Shown in pieces: positions 1-43,630 of a stretch of 64,000 nucleotides of DNA (its first letter is position 1; the number at the start of each line of letters is the position of its first letter). Origin of the DNA: Pempheris klunzingeri (taxonomy: Eukaryota > Chordata > Actinopteri > Acropomatiformes > Pempheridae); contig NC_092028.1 of assembly GCF_042242105.1 (NCBI RefSeq), positions 13,749,338 to 13,813,337 of the forward strand, read 5' to 3'. A model generated the notes under the pieces. That model searched no databases and had not been told where the DNA came from. It saw nothing but the letters and a program-made list of their open reading frames with translations. Position numbers and translations under genes: made by a program.

Positions 1-12007
<12,007 letters not shown>

Positions 12008-23270: not shown

Positions 23271-26200
23271 CTACAAGTCCATATCGTGATCGCTCACACT
23301 CTGGCGGAGGTATTCTTCATACAGCTTTTTCTAGAAGGAAAGAAAAGACAGTCAACACATCCAAATACTGCTGTTTTATTGTACACACATACACACACAC
23401 ACACACACACACAATACCTTTTTGGTCTTGACCACCTCCTGAACGTACTCCAGCTTCTCCTGCAGTTGCCTTTTCTGTTTGCCTGACAGGGTTGGCTGAG
23501 TCCTGCAAGAGAATTGAAGGGAGGTGTCCAAGAATTTCATGAGATTTGTGATTAACGTACCAGCAAAAGTTGCAAAACTGTGAATGTTCAAGAACCCAAA
23601 GTCACACGTGGCTGCTTAACATGGATTATCTACTTGGTTCCACCATGGGGGGAAAAAAGTTCACTGCTGCAGTAAAAAAAGGAGAGTGGTATAAAAAAAA
23701 AGCGATGTCATCAAATTGCTTGTTTTGTGCCTCAAAACCCAAAAGATATTTGATTTATTATAGCATAAGACAAAGAAAAACAGCAAATGCTCTGAACTGG
23801 CAAACTGGGAAAAGGGGATATTTGGCATTTCTGCTTAAAAGCCATCCTACTCACTGAATTAATTAATAGCTAATGATTATTTCCAGCGTGCCCATTGGAG
23901 AAAGCAAGATAACATAACCTGAAATCACATTTAAAAATATGTAAAACACTTGGGAAAGAGGTTAAATGAATAAGTGATATACAAGTGTAAAATCAACAAA
24001 GAAAATGAAAATAAATAATGTTACAATGAATGAAATTGGTGACCTTACAGTAAAGTAAAAGCAGCTGATTCGATACCATCAGAATAAAAGCTGTGACTGT
24101 GCTGAGATCTCGTCCTCCTACCTGAAGGAGAAGCGTGCGATGATGAGCAGGAGGAAGGAGAGGAAGACCAGTGCGCCACAGCTGTAAAGCTGCTGCTCCG
24201 CAGACAGGGAGTCAAATACTTTCACTACGGGAGTCTGTGGATCACAAGGGCAGCTACAATTAGTTGTGACTGCTTTGCACGCAGATGATGAAACGACTAC
24301 AACACACCAGAGAGCAGTGCACTCACCAGGTAGAGGGAGAGCATCTCGGTGCCGTTGCGGCCCAGAGCCATCTCCAGCAGCTCCTGGGACAGGGAGCCCA
24401 GAACCAGCAAGGCCATCAGAGCCAGAGGGACGGTGAAGCCCAGCAGAGTCAGGAAGCAGCTCTTGCAGCGTGCCTGTCGGTTCCCAGTGCTGGCCTGCCT
24501 GTGAGAGCAGAGGGGCGAAGTTATTCTCTAAAGGCAACACTGGCTGATGCTACTGTGTGTCTCCAGCTGATCTGAAATATCTGCTGAGGACTGTGGCTCC
24601 AGTCAGAAAGAATGAGAGTCAATAAAACACCTTTTAAAATGCTAAGAAAATAACCTCTCCTGGATCCTGCACTATGATCAAATGAAAGTACTTTAGTTTT
24701 TTACTATTGCAACTATAAAGCAAGTTAATTTGAAAAACATTTAAACAATATTTCAGTCTGTTTCTATGAGTTACCGGTCGTTAATGAGCTTATCAGTGAT
24801 GCCCTCGCTGATGATCTCACAGTCCTTCTCCAGGGAGTTGAGTGTATTCTGGACCGTTTGGTTGATAGTTTTCTCGATGGTGCGGCACACCTCCTCGATC
24901 TGGTTGACGCAGCGACTCGGCTGAGAACAGGAACATAGTTTATATAACAATCTTTGAACTAATTGGAATAATGTGCAAAAGAACAAATTAAAGGAGCAGG
25001 AGTTTAAGTGGACAATCGCCTAGAAATCCATGAAAGTGCAGCCATTACCTTGTTTGGATTAGGAACGTAGATGGTGGGCATGTCAAAACCACATTTGTTG
25101 AGTCCCGGCCTCTTGCAGAGCTCCTGGACAATCTGCATCATTACTCTCTGAGACAGACGGTCACAAAATGACAGAAATAAGTGAGGGAGAGAATCAAGAT
25201 GTGACCTCCTGCTTTTAAGTATCATTTAGACAGGTCTACATTTTATGTCAGTGAATGTCCATTTACTTGTTTGTTCTGTACTCGTACATTATTTAAACGC
25301 TGCACTGGTAAAGACACTTGACAGCAGTTTAACTACCCACACTTTAGAAAAGAAGAAAAGGTGACAAAACACAAACTTTTAAAGCGAGCTGCTGCCGCGC
25401 ATACCTGTCTGTCCGACTCTCCCCCGGCCTCGTCCGCCTTGCTGAGGTAAAAACGTAGTCGATCTCCGTGTTTATCATTCAGACTCTCCACAATATTAAG
25501 GGTGCGCTTGCACAGAGCCTGACCCATGGGGTCAAAGAAGACCAGAATCAGGTCGCAGAGATTACCTGAGAGTGACAGAGGGAAGGACCATCATTTTCCT
25601 CAACAGGATTAAGTATCATTGTACTGTGACAATATGACTCCACTGAAAGATGATCATAAAATTTGAGCTGTCAGTTTGTTTTGAGGCAATTGAAGCTAGC
25701 TTGCGAAACAAGTGGTGAGACCAGCAGTTCACCTGGAAGAAGCTCACTACTGAAACACAAATACTAAGGCAGAAGTGGGGGGCCCTTTGGCAAACCACTG
25801 AAATGAAAAAGAAAAACTGAATATTTTTACATGATTAAAAGCAAAGTCTGGTCAAGTTAATAGAAATTGAAACAAAATGTGTTTGACGCAAACCTATAAG
25901 AGGTCGGGATGTACAGGGATAGACGCCAATCTCCTGCAGTTCTGCTTTTTGAGGCCAGTACTTCATGTTAACTGGAGACATCACAGATTCAACAAATGCC
26001 CGCAGGGCTGCTCCTCTTCATCCATCTATTTTTACGGTACCAGTTAAAATAACTCGGTGTCACAACACCAGCTGCCACAATAGCCTCGGGGGACGCTTAA
26101 TAACTACAGCACGTCAACAGACAAGGTCAGTTAGTGGCAACCCACCCAGCCACATGATAACCTCATCCACATCAAAGGGATACTTCATATCGCCGTCCAC

Positions 26201-28819
26201 CAACCCTGGGGAGTCCACAAATGTCACCAAGCTGAAACGTTTCTGTCTCGATGTGCAGATTTCTGTGCTCAAGTACTCGGAGACACCTAGAAATCAATTT
26301 GAGGAGATCAGAGAGTTGAGGTGAAAAGCATGTAGGACGTTGATATTTATAATTATGCTTGATTCTGATCTCTTTGTTACTGAGAGTGCTGCCACACTAA
26401 TCGATCGGTTCTACTGCTGCGTCATACAACAGACAAAGTATACAGACACATGTCTAAGTAGTTGCCAAATGGACAAACAACAATACAGCAAATCTCTCCA
26501 GCAGAATGCTGGGAATTTGGGAGTGGATCAGTGTGGCAGCAGCCTAAAGGGAAACAAAGTGCATCATTGTAGTCTTTAGAATAGAACTGGGAGAGATTGT
26601 GATTCAAACTGAAATCTTACCTTTGAACTCTTGCAGAGGCTTGAAGTGTGGATACAGATGAAGGGTGGCATTTCCCTAAAGACAAACAGAACCAGATCAG
26701 ACAGTTTGTGAGCCAGGTATCAGGATCACCAGAAGTTCATAAATCACTGAAAAGGAACTAATTTGAGTTGTTGTAATAAGTCAGTATCACAAAGAATGCC
26801 TTAAGGCATCACGGTTGGCAGTTGAGGACCAAATATACACCTATATTACAAATGGATCCTTATTTGTTGTGTACTGTTGCACTCACTGTCAGGGATTCTC
26901 TCTTGCGTCCATTTGTAACAAAGCTGAAACCTTGGGTCTCAATAGCTACTCCAGTGCGCTGGATGTGCTCTTCCACATACCTGAAGAAAAAAATATATAT
27001 ACATATATATATAACAAAAAGGAACTGTAACAACTCAGCGATGCACCGATGGATGAGAAATGTTTTTTTCCAAGTCAGTTTTCTGCACTGTCCAAACTAA
27101 AAATCAATCAGAACTATGTATTCAGCTCAATCAATAGACTGGTGCATACTCTGTAAAACTCTTTGCAGCAGCTCATGCATTATGGATTACATTTAGCCAT
27201 TTTGTTCCTATAAATTTGAGGGCTATCGCTTTATAGCCAAATGTTAGTCAATGAGGAGAGTCTTAGTTGATCAAGTTTTCATTGGTCATAAAAAAAAAAA
27301 AACAACAAGAAAATAAAACCCAACGCAAACTCCATTTGGGAGCTGTGCCAAAATTAGGTCAAACCCTATGGACTGTGTATGAAGCCCAAGAGAGCATTTA
27401 ATTTGAAAGGCCGGACACAGGAAGTGACAGTCAGATAGATAGCTAGACAGACACTTAATCAGACCAGATCACTTCCTAAAGTTAAAGCAATGTTATTCTG
27501 TGTTGAAATAAATTCAGAAAATGTTTAACCTCCTTGATGGTTGTTCCAACACATTCTGAATCACCACTACTTTTAGGCGTGGGCTTGTAAAATCTATATT
27601 TAAGTATTCACTGCCCACTAGTGAGCAGTGATTAAATAACTGAATTTAGATCATAAAAGAGCAACGACTGCACTAGTGGCTCGAGCTAAGGACTACAAGT
27701 TAACTAGGAGAATCTTTAGTCAGGGGCAGCCTGAATAATTTGATTTGCAACAGACACAAATTAAGCTGAACAGATTTAGACTAGATATGGTGCACAAGGT
27801 AAACCTGTTCTTATACACACTGTTGTCTGTTGCGTGCCATTTACATTTTTTGTGTTTCACTGTGTTGCGTTTAAGGGATCACTTTCGCTGCTAATCGTTG
27901 ATAAGTCTGATGTTGACCTGCTAAAAGTAGAGACCAGCTTTTGTACAAACATCCTCACCAGTTGATGAAGGAGCTCTTCCCAGCAGAGTGGTTGCCCATC
28001 AGCAACACGGTGATCTTTTTCCTGGGCGCCAGCAACTTCACACCAACAGATTCAGCTATTGAGATCAACCCTGAACAAAACAGAGAGAGAACATGATCTA
28101 AATAACCACTAACAACATTTTTACAGGTGTCGCAGTGGTCTCATTAAAATCAAGGAATACTGGAGCCATCATGGAGCTCCTGCAGAAAGAGCAAGACAAC
28201 TGCATGAATGAGTGGGAGCTGGAGAAGGACCACAGACATTACATCACCGGCACTTATATTCAAATATTTAGGAAGAGCACAGATGGCATTTAAAAACTGA
28301 TGTAGCTACTTCATTGATTGTATGGGGACCCAGACTGTCCAGCGACGCACCTTCTAAATAACAAGTGAAACCTCAATGTTGATACAACACTAGTTGTATT
28401 AAGAGCTACAATACCAATACGTCGAGACTGTGTAGCTCAATTAATGGTTTAATAAAATACTTCCACAGCTGTGTGTGGCTAATGTGACTAAAGCTAGCAT
28501 TGATGCTAGCTAGCGCAACGTCAGCCAAATCACCAAATCCTTGCCTATGAGTTAGCTAACATTAGCTAACGGTTAGCCTCCTGAACTTAACTTAGTACAG
28601 TTAGCTAGTTAAACCCCAGTCAGCCAAATGCCTGCTTATCTTAACTTCACTATTCACAATGAGTGAATGTTTGAATCCAGCAGTAAATATGTCAGCCAAC
28701 TCACCGCTGTCGGGGTCCATGTACAGTTGGTGACAATCCCGCAAGATGCGCTCATCGCAGGACACACCACCAGATACCGACTCTGCGTTAGCGGCACTTC
28801 GGCTCTTGATTTTCGACAT
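23271..28819 (-). CDS. unnamed dynamin/EHD/sarcalumenin-like GTPase with C-terminal membrane hairpin
   Basis: I do not recognise a named orthologue. Exons in transcript order: 28819-28705, 28070-27959, 26980-26887, 26675-26621, 26286-26146, 25565-25405, 25147-25049, 24920-24775, 24498-24327, 24234-24122, 23502-23418, 23330-23271; all phases agree, giving 450 residues. G1/P-loop is GNHSAGKS (64-71), G3 is DSPG (150-153), followed by YPFDV, and G4 is SKAD (214-217). DSPG-YPFDV and LILVFFDP resemble sarcalumenin and EHD GTPases, but EHD's EH domain and sarcalumenin's signal peptide are absent. Residues 230-305 are helical with evenly spaced hydrophobics. Two hydrophobic stretches (about 323-343 and 384-398) enclose a short loop with a possible N-glycosylation site at Asn356, and a Lys-rich tail ends DHDMDL. 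This suggests an ER- or vesicle-anchored GTPase with both ends in the cytosol (inference). The start is the first ATG of a CpG-type exon behind a ZNF143-like site. Gene reality is sure; function is not. Confidence 0.87.
23391..23413. repeat. (CA)n next to the donor of GTPase-gene exon 11
   Basis: The repeat starts 4 nt into the intron after exon 23502-23418 on the minus strand. Confidence 0.9.
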
Positions 28820-28994
28820 TGTTAGCCAGTGATGATATCAAACTTTTGGAGAAACTTGTTCAAGCATCTATAGGTCCACAGCTCTGCGAACTGGCAGTGA
28901 ACAAAGCCGGGTTGCCTTGTTTGAATCGCCCCGGTCCGCCTAAACACGGGGTTAAGACGTACTCCAGCCACGTCGTCAACATGAGCGGCTTTTT

Positions 28995-29021
28995 GTCGCA
29001 CAGCATTTTGGGTAATGTAGT
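28995..29021 (-). promoter_or_regulatory. ZNF143/STAF-like site upstream of the unnamed GTPase gene
   Basis: The minus strand reads ACTACATTACCCAAAATGC followed by TGTGCGAC, a near-complete match to the long ZNF143 (SBS) consensus ACTACAnTTCCCAGmATGC. It is about 175-200 bp upstream of the ATG in a CpG-containing stretch, a typical place for this promoter element. Confidence 0.7.
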
Positions 29022-30792: not shown

Positions 30793-31387
30793 TTGATTGA
30801 ATCGCTCTTGTTATCACACTTAACTTAATGTAGTACGTGTTACGTTCAGCAGCTCATTGTGTTTGTTCTTCATGATCGCGCTGTGTTAATGTGATCCTTG
30901 TTCACGTTGAATAAATTAGCATAACTTGTGCCAATAGAAATCATGTGGTTGGCTTCGTCTTTTGGTTAAGTGTGCTGCTCTGCAGCATCTTGCATTTTCA
31001 CAATCTCGTGTCCGGTTTCTTCCCCGTAGTGAATGAAAGGCTTTTTTTCAGAAAATTAAATGTACATTGCCACGAAGTAAAACAGCAAGTTGAACATTGT
31101 TGGAAAGCTTTTGACTGCAGCCAAGCTTTCAACCTTCATATTTCATATTTCAAACCATGTGGTCACAGTGTTGCTGTGCATTATATAGAGGACACATATA
31201 CCAGTGTCAGACTAATGAGATGCATATTAGGCTGTTGCAATTATTATGTTTCAATTAGCGAGGGAAGATTTACATGAGGTTAGGTGTCATGCTTCCTTAA
31301 TGCACAAGCGCTCTCAGCATGCAGAGAGCAACAGGGCTCCTAATGTTTCCTTCATCATTATGTCAGAATAGAGTCTTCCGTCCTTGG

Positions 31388-34163
31388 TTACCAGTGGGCT
31401 TTCCTCTCTTTGGCAACCAGCTCCAGGAAGTGGGAATGACTCGCATAGAGGGGGTAGGACGAGTCAACATCGACCCATTGGACTTGTCCTGCATCATCGC
31501 CAGCTTGCAGCGGCAGCTCGCTCACACTGTTGCCTGCAGTAACAACACATATATCTATATAACAACACCCCAGAGCAAAAATATCTTAGAACTATGACAA
31601 CTTGGAGCCACTGTAGCATGAATGCCACACTGGATTTCTGTTATAGTGACAATTTAAGAGGAAAAAAGAACAGTCTTCCTAATAATTGATACCTGAGTCG
31701 TCGTGGAAATTGACAGCGACGGTTTCCATCCAAACATTGTCAGTGTTTCTAGGATCGTCCACGTAGCCTTTATAGACCTGAAGGACAATAAAGTTATTTT
31801 AATTTTCCTCTTGGAGGCACTTGTTGACTGTAATGCTCCAGCAAACAAGCGAGCGGTGGGTCAGTTGCTGACCTGAAACCCTGCCGACTTGAAAAGTTTG
31901 ACGATGCGTTCATGGATTTTCGCTCTCTCTGACGGCAGGACTGCCAACGAGTTCAGAGCTTCTTCCGAGAACTCCCGCTGCAGCGTGAGAGAGACCTGCT
32001 CCCCTGGATCCACCATCCCCTACGAAGCAAGCAAGTCACAGGACCACGACATCTTACATATGACACATGACTTAGCTGCGAGCATATAATGGTAGGCCCA
32101 GTGAAAAGAAATATAAAAAGGTGCCGACCCCAGGAATGGCCCACTCTCCGCAGTCTTTCCTCTTGATAGCCACGAACTGCAGGACAGGCCGTTTGGAGAC
32201 TGAGTGAAGGACTTTTGCTCCTTTGGTATCAACTTTCCACCTGGCAGACAGTCACAAACATCAGGCCACCAGGCAGCTATAAAAAGAAAACTGTGCAAAA
32301 GAGTGCAAAGCGCAAAAGAGGTCCCAGTTCTTTGGCAATTGAGCAACTTTGTCTTTTTGACAGAACAGGAAATTGCTGGTTTTAGAGGAACCTTGAACTG
32401 CCTGGTTTGGATATATTATTGACTCTTTTGAATCATTCCTTGTGTAACTAAATAAGTTATGAACTACACTTAGTAAGCAACTGAATTCCACTGGTGTATA
32501 AAGTAAGAACAAAGTTACCTGGTGACAATGGGATCTGCTGCATGGTTCGGTCCCCATCGTCCCAGCAAACCTCTACCAGTCAACCCCGTGCGTCCATGAG
32601 GATTCCTAAATGAGCACAAAATAATGTGGCACATTCATTTATAAGCAGTTTTATGGAGATATGTCAGCACTTTACTTTAAATGTTAAGATGAACATAAGA
32701 GCATTGAAGAGTCTCTAATTAACGACTGCTTTTCAGAAGTGTTCACAGCCCTCTTCTGCCCAGTCATCCTGACGTATTTGTGCATTAGTATCAAAACCGG
32801 CCATCCATAATACATAAGCTGATCAATTCTACAAAGTCTTATCTGTGTTTTAGTCTACGTTCTACCCCTCGGGGCTTTAAATCCCACTTTTTGAGAAAAA
32901 ACAATCGAGTGTTGCCATCTAATGTTATGTCCGTGTCAGGGAATCCTTTGTAAGAAGCAGTTCTCTTGGTACTTGATAACTTACAGTGGCTTTCCCTTTT
33001 CGTTTTTGTAGCTGCCATCAAAGCTTGTCCTATCCACAGCTCCATCCACAGCGTTGAACTTTGGAGAGAAAGAACTGCAACACCAGCAGAAGTCATCAAT
33101 ATTGGCACGAATAAACTGCTGCTGATCTTTGGAAACAAACAGCGTGTATAACAAATATTTTTGGTATAAATTAGCTAGTAAATTCTGTGTTGCTCACCCA
33201 ATATCAGGATCCGCCCATGCTGGCTTCTTTAGCACTGAAGGGTCGGTGTAGCTGACTGGATTATACTGCGGCCAGTCCTGACTCCAGTCCACCTTGGCAT
33301 CAGGCACGGGGAAGCGCTTGATTTTGGACCCTGGATACTGGGGGCACCTGGACTTAACATGAGGCGCTGCAGAGGATGGCATTGTCTGGACACTGGTCGT
33401 GTAATGGTTAGAGCAACTGGTGGCTCGGATGGCTTGACTGGTTCTGAAAGGCTGGGACGATGAGCAGGAGATGGCGGGCCTTCAGGGGAAGAAATATGAG
33501 ACAGAGAAATCCAATAAGTACTGCTCACTCTACCATCCCTGCACCGGAAGCGTGGCACCAGCTTAACCCCACATGTACTCCTCGCCCTCCCTGCTCATTA
33601 GCAGAGAAGAACCATCCCAATCAAGCGGTTACAGCACCAATCTGTGCCACACACAGGTAACACTGAAAAGGAAGGAAACCAAACACTGAGCTGGTTGTCA
33701 TTTGAGTCGTGGAATCATGTAATGACACCAGGATGAGAGCTACACTAACACTACAACACAGATCTGTTGTCTCAAGTTATTGTTATAATATAAAATAACA
33801 TATTAATAGGATTTTAAATGGAGGTAAAGTTTGTCAACAATTTTGCACAAGTCAAGTGTTGTGCATTAATATAAAACGCAGTTAGCTAATGGTTGAATCT
33901 ATTCTAGCATTGACTTAAATCGTGTTTAATGCCAGTGATTGAGGACTTTGACTCTCTCCAATATCAACTCCCCTGCAGCACAAAACCTTTGATTAAAAGT
34001 GTTAGCTTAAAGCCGAAACTGTCGAAACGTAAAATAGCTTCCAGTAAAATGTCTGCGGTCCATACCTGACTCCGGCGGCGCAGACGGCACAGGGAAGTCC
34101 GAAGAGAGTGAGCGCTAGGCGAATCCGGCCGATGCAGTCTCGCCGCAGAAGGAAATGTACCAT
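31388..34163 (-). CDS. nudt9: ADP-ribose pyrophosphatase NUDT9 (Nudix hydrolase, mitochondrial type)
   Basis: Hydrolyses free ADP-ribose to AMP and ribose-5-phosphate. Exons in transcript order: 34163-34066, 33443-33198, 33074-32985, 32605-32519, 32240-32129, 32019-31873, 31777-31693, 31533-31388. They join in frame to 336 residues (human 350). The N-terminus is Arg-rich and hydrophobic without acids after residue 9, compatible with mitochondrial import. [38 protein letters not shown] and [11 protein letters not shown] match the NUDT9/TRPM2-NUDT9H family. The Nudix box starts at G212 with E218 and REFSEEAL (226-233), keeping the REx2EE core expected of an active enzyme. The protein ends KERKAHW. 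It is divergent from mapk3, with about 1.1 kb between the ATGs. The exon 5 donor (GGG|gtcggc) is weak but required by the frame and by the conserved PGGMVDPGE. In human NUDT9 is on chromosome 4, so this neighbourhood differs. Confidence 0.96.
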
Positions 34164-34984: not shown

Positions 34985-35256
34985 CCCGCACCGGTCTTCC
35001 TGGTGAGCACATCTAACGCACCTGTATTACCGTAGTTTGGCACGCGCGTTTACGCTCGCTGCTGAGACCAAATCCGCGCTCGCGCACGAAATCCATTTAC
35101 ACCCCGGTAGTGAGAGGGCCCGGCCGAGTCTCCGTGCCCCGTCTATCTATCAATCCTGTCGGTTGAAGCCTCGGACAGACGCTGAACCGAGCTGAGAGCG
35201 GCGGCGGTCCCCCGGTGACTCTAACGGACAGAGCAGGAGCGGTTTGGAGAGGAAGA
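34985..35256 (+). promoter_or_regulatory. CpG-rich mapk3 promoter/5'UTR
   Basis: Dense CpG dinucleotides (cacgcgcg, gctcgcgcacg, gagcggcggcgg) directly before the ATG, no TATA box. The stretch is CpG-island-like; the transcription start cannot be placed. Confidence 0.55.

Positions 35257-43630
<8,374 letters not shown>

Follow-up and report, generated by a model that had tools for sequence, protein, structure and literature searches.

A candidate EHD/sarcalumenin-type NTPase gene with a predicted membrane hairpin in the fish Pempheris klunzingeri

Introduction

What kind of protein is encoded by a twelve-exon gene on the minus strand of a 64-kb stretch of DNA from the fish Pempheris klunzingeri (23271..28819; the whole stretch is referred to below as the window), and to which of the families that shape membranes does it belong? 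The original prediction saw in it a GTPase of atlastin-like layout. From profile searches, alignments and comparison with bacterial relatives we conclude that the 450-residue product is very probably an EHD/sarcalumenin-type member of the dynamin superfamily; the gene may encode an overlooked membrane-shaping machine. In all comparisons sarcalumenin (SRL) is represented by a human sequence.

Results

The gene

The exon chain, which was built from sequence alone, was reproduced in full as it had been predicted: twelve exons running from 28819 to 23271, eleven introns that are all GT-AG, phases that agree at every junction, and a coding sequence of 1353 nucleotides (nt) for 450 amino acids and a stop. 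The start codon has an A at -3 and lies in a bin with a CpG observed/expected ratio of 1.04; the ratio is 0.61-0.70 in the next two bins within the gene and falls to 0.16-0.38 in the five upstream bins. Poly(A)-type signals follow the stop at 63 nt (ATTAAA) and 714 nt (AATAAA). Intron 11 also holds a (CA)n microsatellite (23383-23413). Judged on these features the gene is intact as sequence. The chain is known from one genome, and a mis-joined or decayed model could be suspected on that account; the consistent introns, the absence of any internal stop codon in 1353 nt and a single profile alignment that covers residues 55 to 337 (see below) all argue against this, and we regard it as very improbable.

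The G domain is of the EHD/sarcalumenin type

All three predicted nucleotide-binding motifs are present, the P-loop GNHSAGKS at residues 64-71, DSPG at 150-153 and SKAD at 214-217. The Pfam model Dynamin_N scores 34.8 bits against a cut-off of 27 (E=2.2e-8), which assigns the protein to the dynamin superfamily, and MMR_HSR1 scores 24.4 bits (cut-off 21.9); the five NCBIfam matches are weak and none comes near its cut-off. In a sequence search of the PDB, EHD2 and EHD4 were the only matches below E=0.05, with six distinct sequences aligning over residues 57-221 (E 1.3e-10 to 1.7e-10), and the 10 PDB sequences listed at nominal E<=10 include neither an atlastin nor a mitofusin. This bears out the earlier view that the G domain lies nearer to EHD/sarcalumenin. 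By blastp the identity is 27.8% to EHD2 over 169 residues, 25.1% to EHD4 over 183 and 25.9% to SRL over 247.

The profile check that had been proposed was positive for Dynamin_N and negative for EHD_N (PF16880), which gave no match to the 450-residue protein in the Pfam scan at nominal E<=10, though few matches above about 0.1 get through the HMMER filters; the same model scored 60.8 bits on an EHD2 fragment and 46.1 bits on SRL. Neither the EH domain nor DUF5600 was matched at that threshold; DUF5600 was found in the EHD2 control, a fragment that ends before the EH domain, so that the EH model is without a positive control. In the switch I stretch, T91 aligns with a threonine of EHD2 (T94 if a chain offset of 7 is correct), which we take to have a role in switch I. 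The tryptophan of EHD interface 1 (W238 in EHD2, assigned through the same offset) is present in EHD2, EHD4, SRL and all 48 aligned bacterial proteins described below, and is replaced by Gln234 here.

On this evidence, three named identities were considered and rejected. The protein resembles EHD1-4 in its dynamin-type G domain, with T91 and A216 common to it and EHD2, but EHD_N was not found, there is no EH domain match, and the interface tryptophan is a glutamine. With sarcalumenin, a lumenal protein, it shares the G domain and an FDP motif; SRL, however, has EHD_N and is without a hydrophobic stretch after the G domain. The fish protein is the reverse: it has a pair of hydrophobic segments and no EHD_N match, and none of its N-terminal hydrophobic windows exceeds 1.2. 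Atlastins and mitofusins have a G domain, helices, a two-segment membrane anchor and a tail; the likeness to them is one of layout (N-terminal G domain, helices, two-segment anchor, C-terminal tail) and not of membership, given the lack of a PDB match at nominal E<=10. The term GTPase was an assumption that should not be made, because EHDs bind adenine nucleotides according to passages of PMC9741607.

Bacterial proteins of the same plan

A degenerate P-loop pattern, searched in a genome contig collection (84,980 species by its description), found 62 bacterial loci whose encoded proteins have the same plan. By record title, 50 belong to the Planctomycetes-Verrucomicrobia-Chlamydiae (PVC) group, in which the family is strongly enriched (33 verrucomicrobial, 12 planctomycetal, 3 kiritimatiellal and 2 lentisphaeral), and the others include 5 of Rhodobacteraceae/roseobacter type and 2 from Myxococcota/Deltaproteobacteria. 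All 62 proteins match the fish protein by blastp with composition correction off (E 9e-10 to 6e-22). For alignment 48 were kept, the remaining 14 having run off their contig, been short past the P-loop or lacked a fitting start; with the correction on, all 48 match (median 79.7 bits, best 93.6), and EHD2 (60.5 bits), EHD4 (58.2) and SRL (55.5) score below that median.

A profile of the bacterial family aligns with residues 55-337 of the fish protein at 104.9 bits (hhalign probability 99.6), compared to a maximum of 4.3 bits over 1000 shuffles, of which 648 scored at all. The same profile gives 204.8 bits with EHD2 and 194.0 with SRL, which makes these the better-conserved relatives of the bacterial proteins and the fish protein a divergent one. 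On both sides the G domain, the middle region and the hydrophobic stretch follow one another in the same order and at the same spacing. Both lack EHD_N and have the GNHS P-loop, the last a likeness that is partly by selection, as this motif was used to find the loci. They are unlike in that the fish protein is without the bacterial APTDD, PGTTGE and RYG-LCWNL motifs, and its loop, which is 34 residues long and carries a sequon, is the longer one.

Among Pfam models, Dynamin_N and MMR_HSR1 alone match all 48 bacterial proteins, and EHD_N matches none; among NCBIfam models, Era matches 48/48 and DynmDynABac 18/48; for the one member examined in full every score was below its cut-off. PADLOC at E<=0.01 gave LeoA for 27 of the 48 (best E 3.1e-6), LeoBC for 16 (best 5.3e-9) and mad8 for 11; the weak LeoA and LeoBC matches may be such as other dynamin-like proteins might give. 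Some bacterial frames (for example L021 and L044) extend far upstream of the G domain, and long N-terminal extensions are possible there.

Patterns chosen by the search tool gave 37 matches in the genome contigs and one in the viral contigs, none of which was confirmed as a close relative of the full-length protein in bacteria or viruses. The P-loop pattern gave no locus in viral contigs, whole-protein tblastn gave no match in plasmids, and a Roseivivax family member searched against plasmids found none. With the G domain alone, tblastn gave 3 weak matches in phages (E>=0.2) and 5 in plasmids (E>=0.6), two of them annotated as dynamin family protein. In the parts of PMC7016017 (2020) that deal with this group, the closest bacterial homologues of EHD and sarcalumenin carry a pair of transmembrane (TM) helices, and the eukaryotic forms derive from a proteobacterial lineage; because most loci found here are from PVC bacteria, the two sets may differ.

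A predicted hairpin after the G domain

The two hydrophobic segments around a sequon-bearing loop were confirmed at residues 319-344 (TM1) and 379-403 (TM2), with Kyte-Doolittle window peaks at 323-341 (2.45) and 384-402 (2.26), as was the charged, Lys-rich C-terminal tail. The 34-residue loop between them is acidic (net charge -3) with flanks of +2 and +3, and it carries an NGT sequon at N356, at a distance of 12 residues from TM1 and 23 from TM2. Loop acidity, flank charges and the spacing of N356 fit a lumenal loop with the G domain and tail in the cytosol, and a hairpin of this topology is probable; the further sequons at N65, N109 and N279 would then be cytosolic.

The position of the hydrophobic stretch, measured from the P-loop, is the same as in the bacterial proteins: the start is at +254 here, and 46 of the 48 have it between +254 and +268, with the two outliers at +229 and +292. 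At least 38 hydrophobic residues beyond +220, the criterion used, are found in 45 of the 48, 29 with two or more segments and 16 with one long one, and 3 fall below it. Segment spacing by the same measure is 0-19 residues in those 29 and 22 in the fish protein. The predicted combination of a hairpin with an EHD/SRL-like G domain is thus present, but the idea that it lacked precedent was not upheld, since bacterial homologues share the order and spacing, and TM pairs are described in passages of PMC7016017.

Residue patterns and tree

The residues do not point in one direction. Of the 77 columns on which at least 90% of the 48 bacterial proteins agree, the fish protein is identical at 40, EHD2 at 41 and SRL at 45. 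Seven residues, Q83, A88, D156, L209, D224, D248 and I252, are common to the fish protein and the bacteria and absent from EHD2 and SRL, counting the columns that the EHD fragments cover and that do not belong to the selected P-loop. Four others, K57, T91, A216 and V228, are common to the fish protein, EHD2, EHD4 and SRL and occur in 0/48 bacteria. Such conflicting signals would be expected if the protein left the stem between the bacteria and EHD/SRL, and equally if it is merely fast-evolving.

Phylogeny with EHD and SRL, which had been proposed as a check, left most of the groupings that were tried standing. By the approximately unbiased (AU) test the fish protein was tolerated with EHD2, EHD4 and SRL together (p-AU 0.312), with three roseobacters (0.291), with SRL alone (0.123) and with EHD2 and EHD4 (0.109); its placement itself is without support. 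Grouping with EHD2 alone was rejected (p-AU 0.0068), a result that mostly reflects the pairing of EHD2 with EHD4.

Neighbouring genes

Features of the gene and its surroundings are collected in Table 1. The neighbours were identified from coding-biased stretches and from Pfam and PDB matches of translated pieces. We take them to be SERCA/ATP2A1, RABEP2, a NUDT9-like gene, GDPD3 and YPEL3, a set that resembles the genes of human 16p11.2; the YPEL3-like piece has no Pfam match at E<=0.01. The first exon of MAPK3 apparently encodes an Ala-rich N-terminus. Sarcalumenin acts with SERCA, and the linkage of a SERCA-like gene to the present one is curious but is not evidence. Rfam gave 0 matches across the window at gathering scores.

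Table 1. Coordinates of the gene, its exons and its neighbours in the window
Feature	Position	Strand	Basis or remark
Coding span, 12 exons, 450 amino acids	23271..28819	-	exon chain
Exon 1, start codon (A at -3)	28705..28819	-	
Exon 2, P-loop GNHSAGKSSFIN	27959..28070	-	exon chain, Pfam
Exon 3, switch I region, T91	26887..26980	-	alignment with EHD2
Exon 4, G domain	26621..26675	-	
Exon 5, DSPG (G3)	26146..26286	-	
Exon 6, FFDP and SKAD (G4)	25405..25565	-	
Exon 7, end of G domain; Gln234 at the EHD interface Trp position	25049..25147	-	
Exon 8, middle region, helical by homology	24775..24920	-	
Exon 9, TM1 and first part of loop with NGT sequon	24327..24498	-	
Exon 10, remainder of loop and TM2	24122..24234	-	
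Exon 11, Lys-rich tail	23418..23502	-	
Exon 12, end of tail and stop	23271..23330	-	
CpG-rich bin covering the start, promoter-like (observed/expected 1.04)	28800..28999	unassigned	
Possible poly(A) signal AATAAA	22552..22557	-	714 nt past stop
P-type cation ATPase	1598-10036	+	Cation_ATPase_C; two genes from the 450-residue protein gene
Rabaptin	13.9-18.5 kb	-	Rabaptin (Pfam)
NUDIX gene	31375-33355	-	21.0 bits, just under cut-off 21.1
MAPK3	35167-43627	+	four PDB sequences at E<=1e-90, all named MAPK3
GDPD gene	50-53 kb	+	Pfam/PDB match

Discussion

We put at about even the chance that the protein is an integral-membrane nucleoside triphosphatase (NTPase) whose G domains pair in a nucleotide-driven way and thereby tether or remodel membranes. 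The G domain and tail would lie on the cytosolic side and the acidic loop with its sequon on the lumenal side, most likely of an endoplasmic reticulum (ER)-type membrane. Nucleotide-bound G domains would pair across the general dynamin G-interface, giving a tether in trans or an oligomer in cis, and hydrolysis would pull or curve the anchored membranes, by analogy with atlastin or mitofusin. Passages of PMC9741607 describe pairing through the G-interface as general to the dynamin superfamily and as the trigger of hydrolysis; there the EHD dimer through helix alpha-6, with its conserved tryptophan, is family-specific, and mutation of that tryptophan gives insoluble EHD. The stable EHD-specific dimer is probably unused here: with the tryptophan gone and an anchor built in, the G-interface becomes the likelier contact, and for this reason we place an atlastin/mitofusin-like tether or remodeller first and an EHD-like coat in cis second. 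Tethering in trans or fusion specifically is a tentative suggestion, somewhat short of even.

The coat would consist of hairpin-anchored subunits that oligomerise in cis round tubules, with hydrolysis, perhaps of ATP, timing disassembly, so that tubules are shaped and nothing is fused. The EHDs are the closest group of known structure, the four residues shared with EHD2, EHD4 and SRL fit such a kinship, and EHD filaments likewise use the G-interface in the account of PMC9741607 cited above; the missing EHD_N match, though EHD2 and SRL have it, and the glutamine at the alpha-6 interface speak the other way and leave this reading somewhat doubtful. Instead, the protein could be a regulator with little or no activity that, for example, partners an ER membrane protein, its G domain serving as a conformational switch or scaffold. 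The very long branch of the protein in the tree and its replaced residues (see below) would suit this; the P-type cation ATPase gene two genes away would too, with the reservation that linkage is no evidence of interaction. Since the protein retains the Lys/Ser of the P-loop, DSPG and KAD as well as the threonine of the switch I stretch, we consider such a regulator unlikely.

Several observations weigh against an active, hairpin-anchored remodeller. In the G-domain tree the end branch of the fish protein is 9.66 changes per column long, with no supported placement, and 14 residues common to the bacteria (at least 90%), EHD2 and SRL are replaced, among them the alpha-6 tryptophan, the conserved proline at 89 and the asparagine of NKxD (a serine here); activity may therefore have changed or been lost. 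Hydrophobicity by itself is a weak argument, since 38 or more hydrophobic residues also arise when the C-terminal part is shuffled, in 372 of 2000 cases, and position therefore carries the case for the hairpin. Because the profile alignment does not extend past residue 337, which lies within TM1, it is position that argues for homology of TM2 and the tail. An amphipathic tail was considered and rejected, 248 of 2000 shuffles reaching its moment.

The layout is known in bacteria, and its occurrence in a vertebrate would be the new part within the open-licence literature searched: no description of a vertebrate EHD/sarcalumenin-type protein with a hairpin was found in the titles and abstract openings of the open-licence PMC articles listed, which for several queries were the top part of far more papers. 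In the passages concerned, PMC11789081 sets sarcalumenins aside as highly divergent, and those of an EHD review (PMC13282721) make no mention of sarcalumenin; neither set of passages bears on a hairpin form.

It is a speculative and rather unlikely proposal that the protein represents a third eukaryotic EHD/sarcalumenin-type line that has kept the bacterial hairpin, a fish tether or fusogen of the ER or another organelle without close sequence kinship to atlastin, and missing from mammals. EHDs and sarcalumenin are thought, in the portions of PMC7016017 that treat their origin, to derive from a bacterial ancestor with TM-pair relatives. A vertebrate gene that keeps the ancestral layout would show how the hairpin was lost or exchanged for peripheral binding, and it would bring into cell biology a membrane-remodelling NTPase that escapes work based on mammals.

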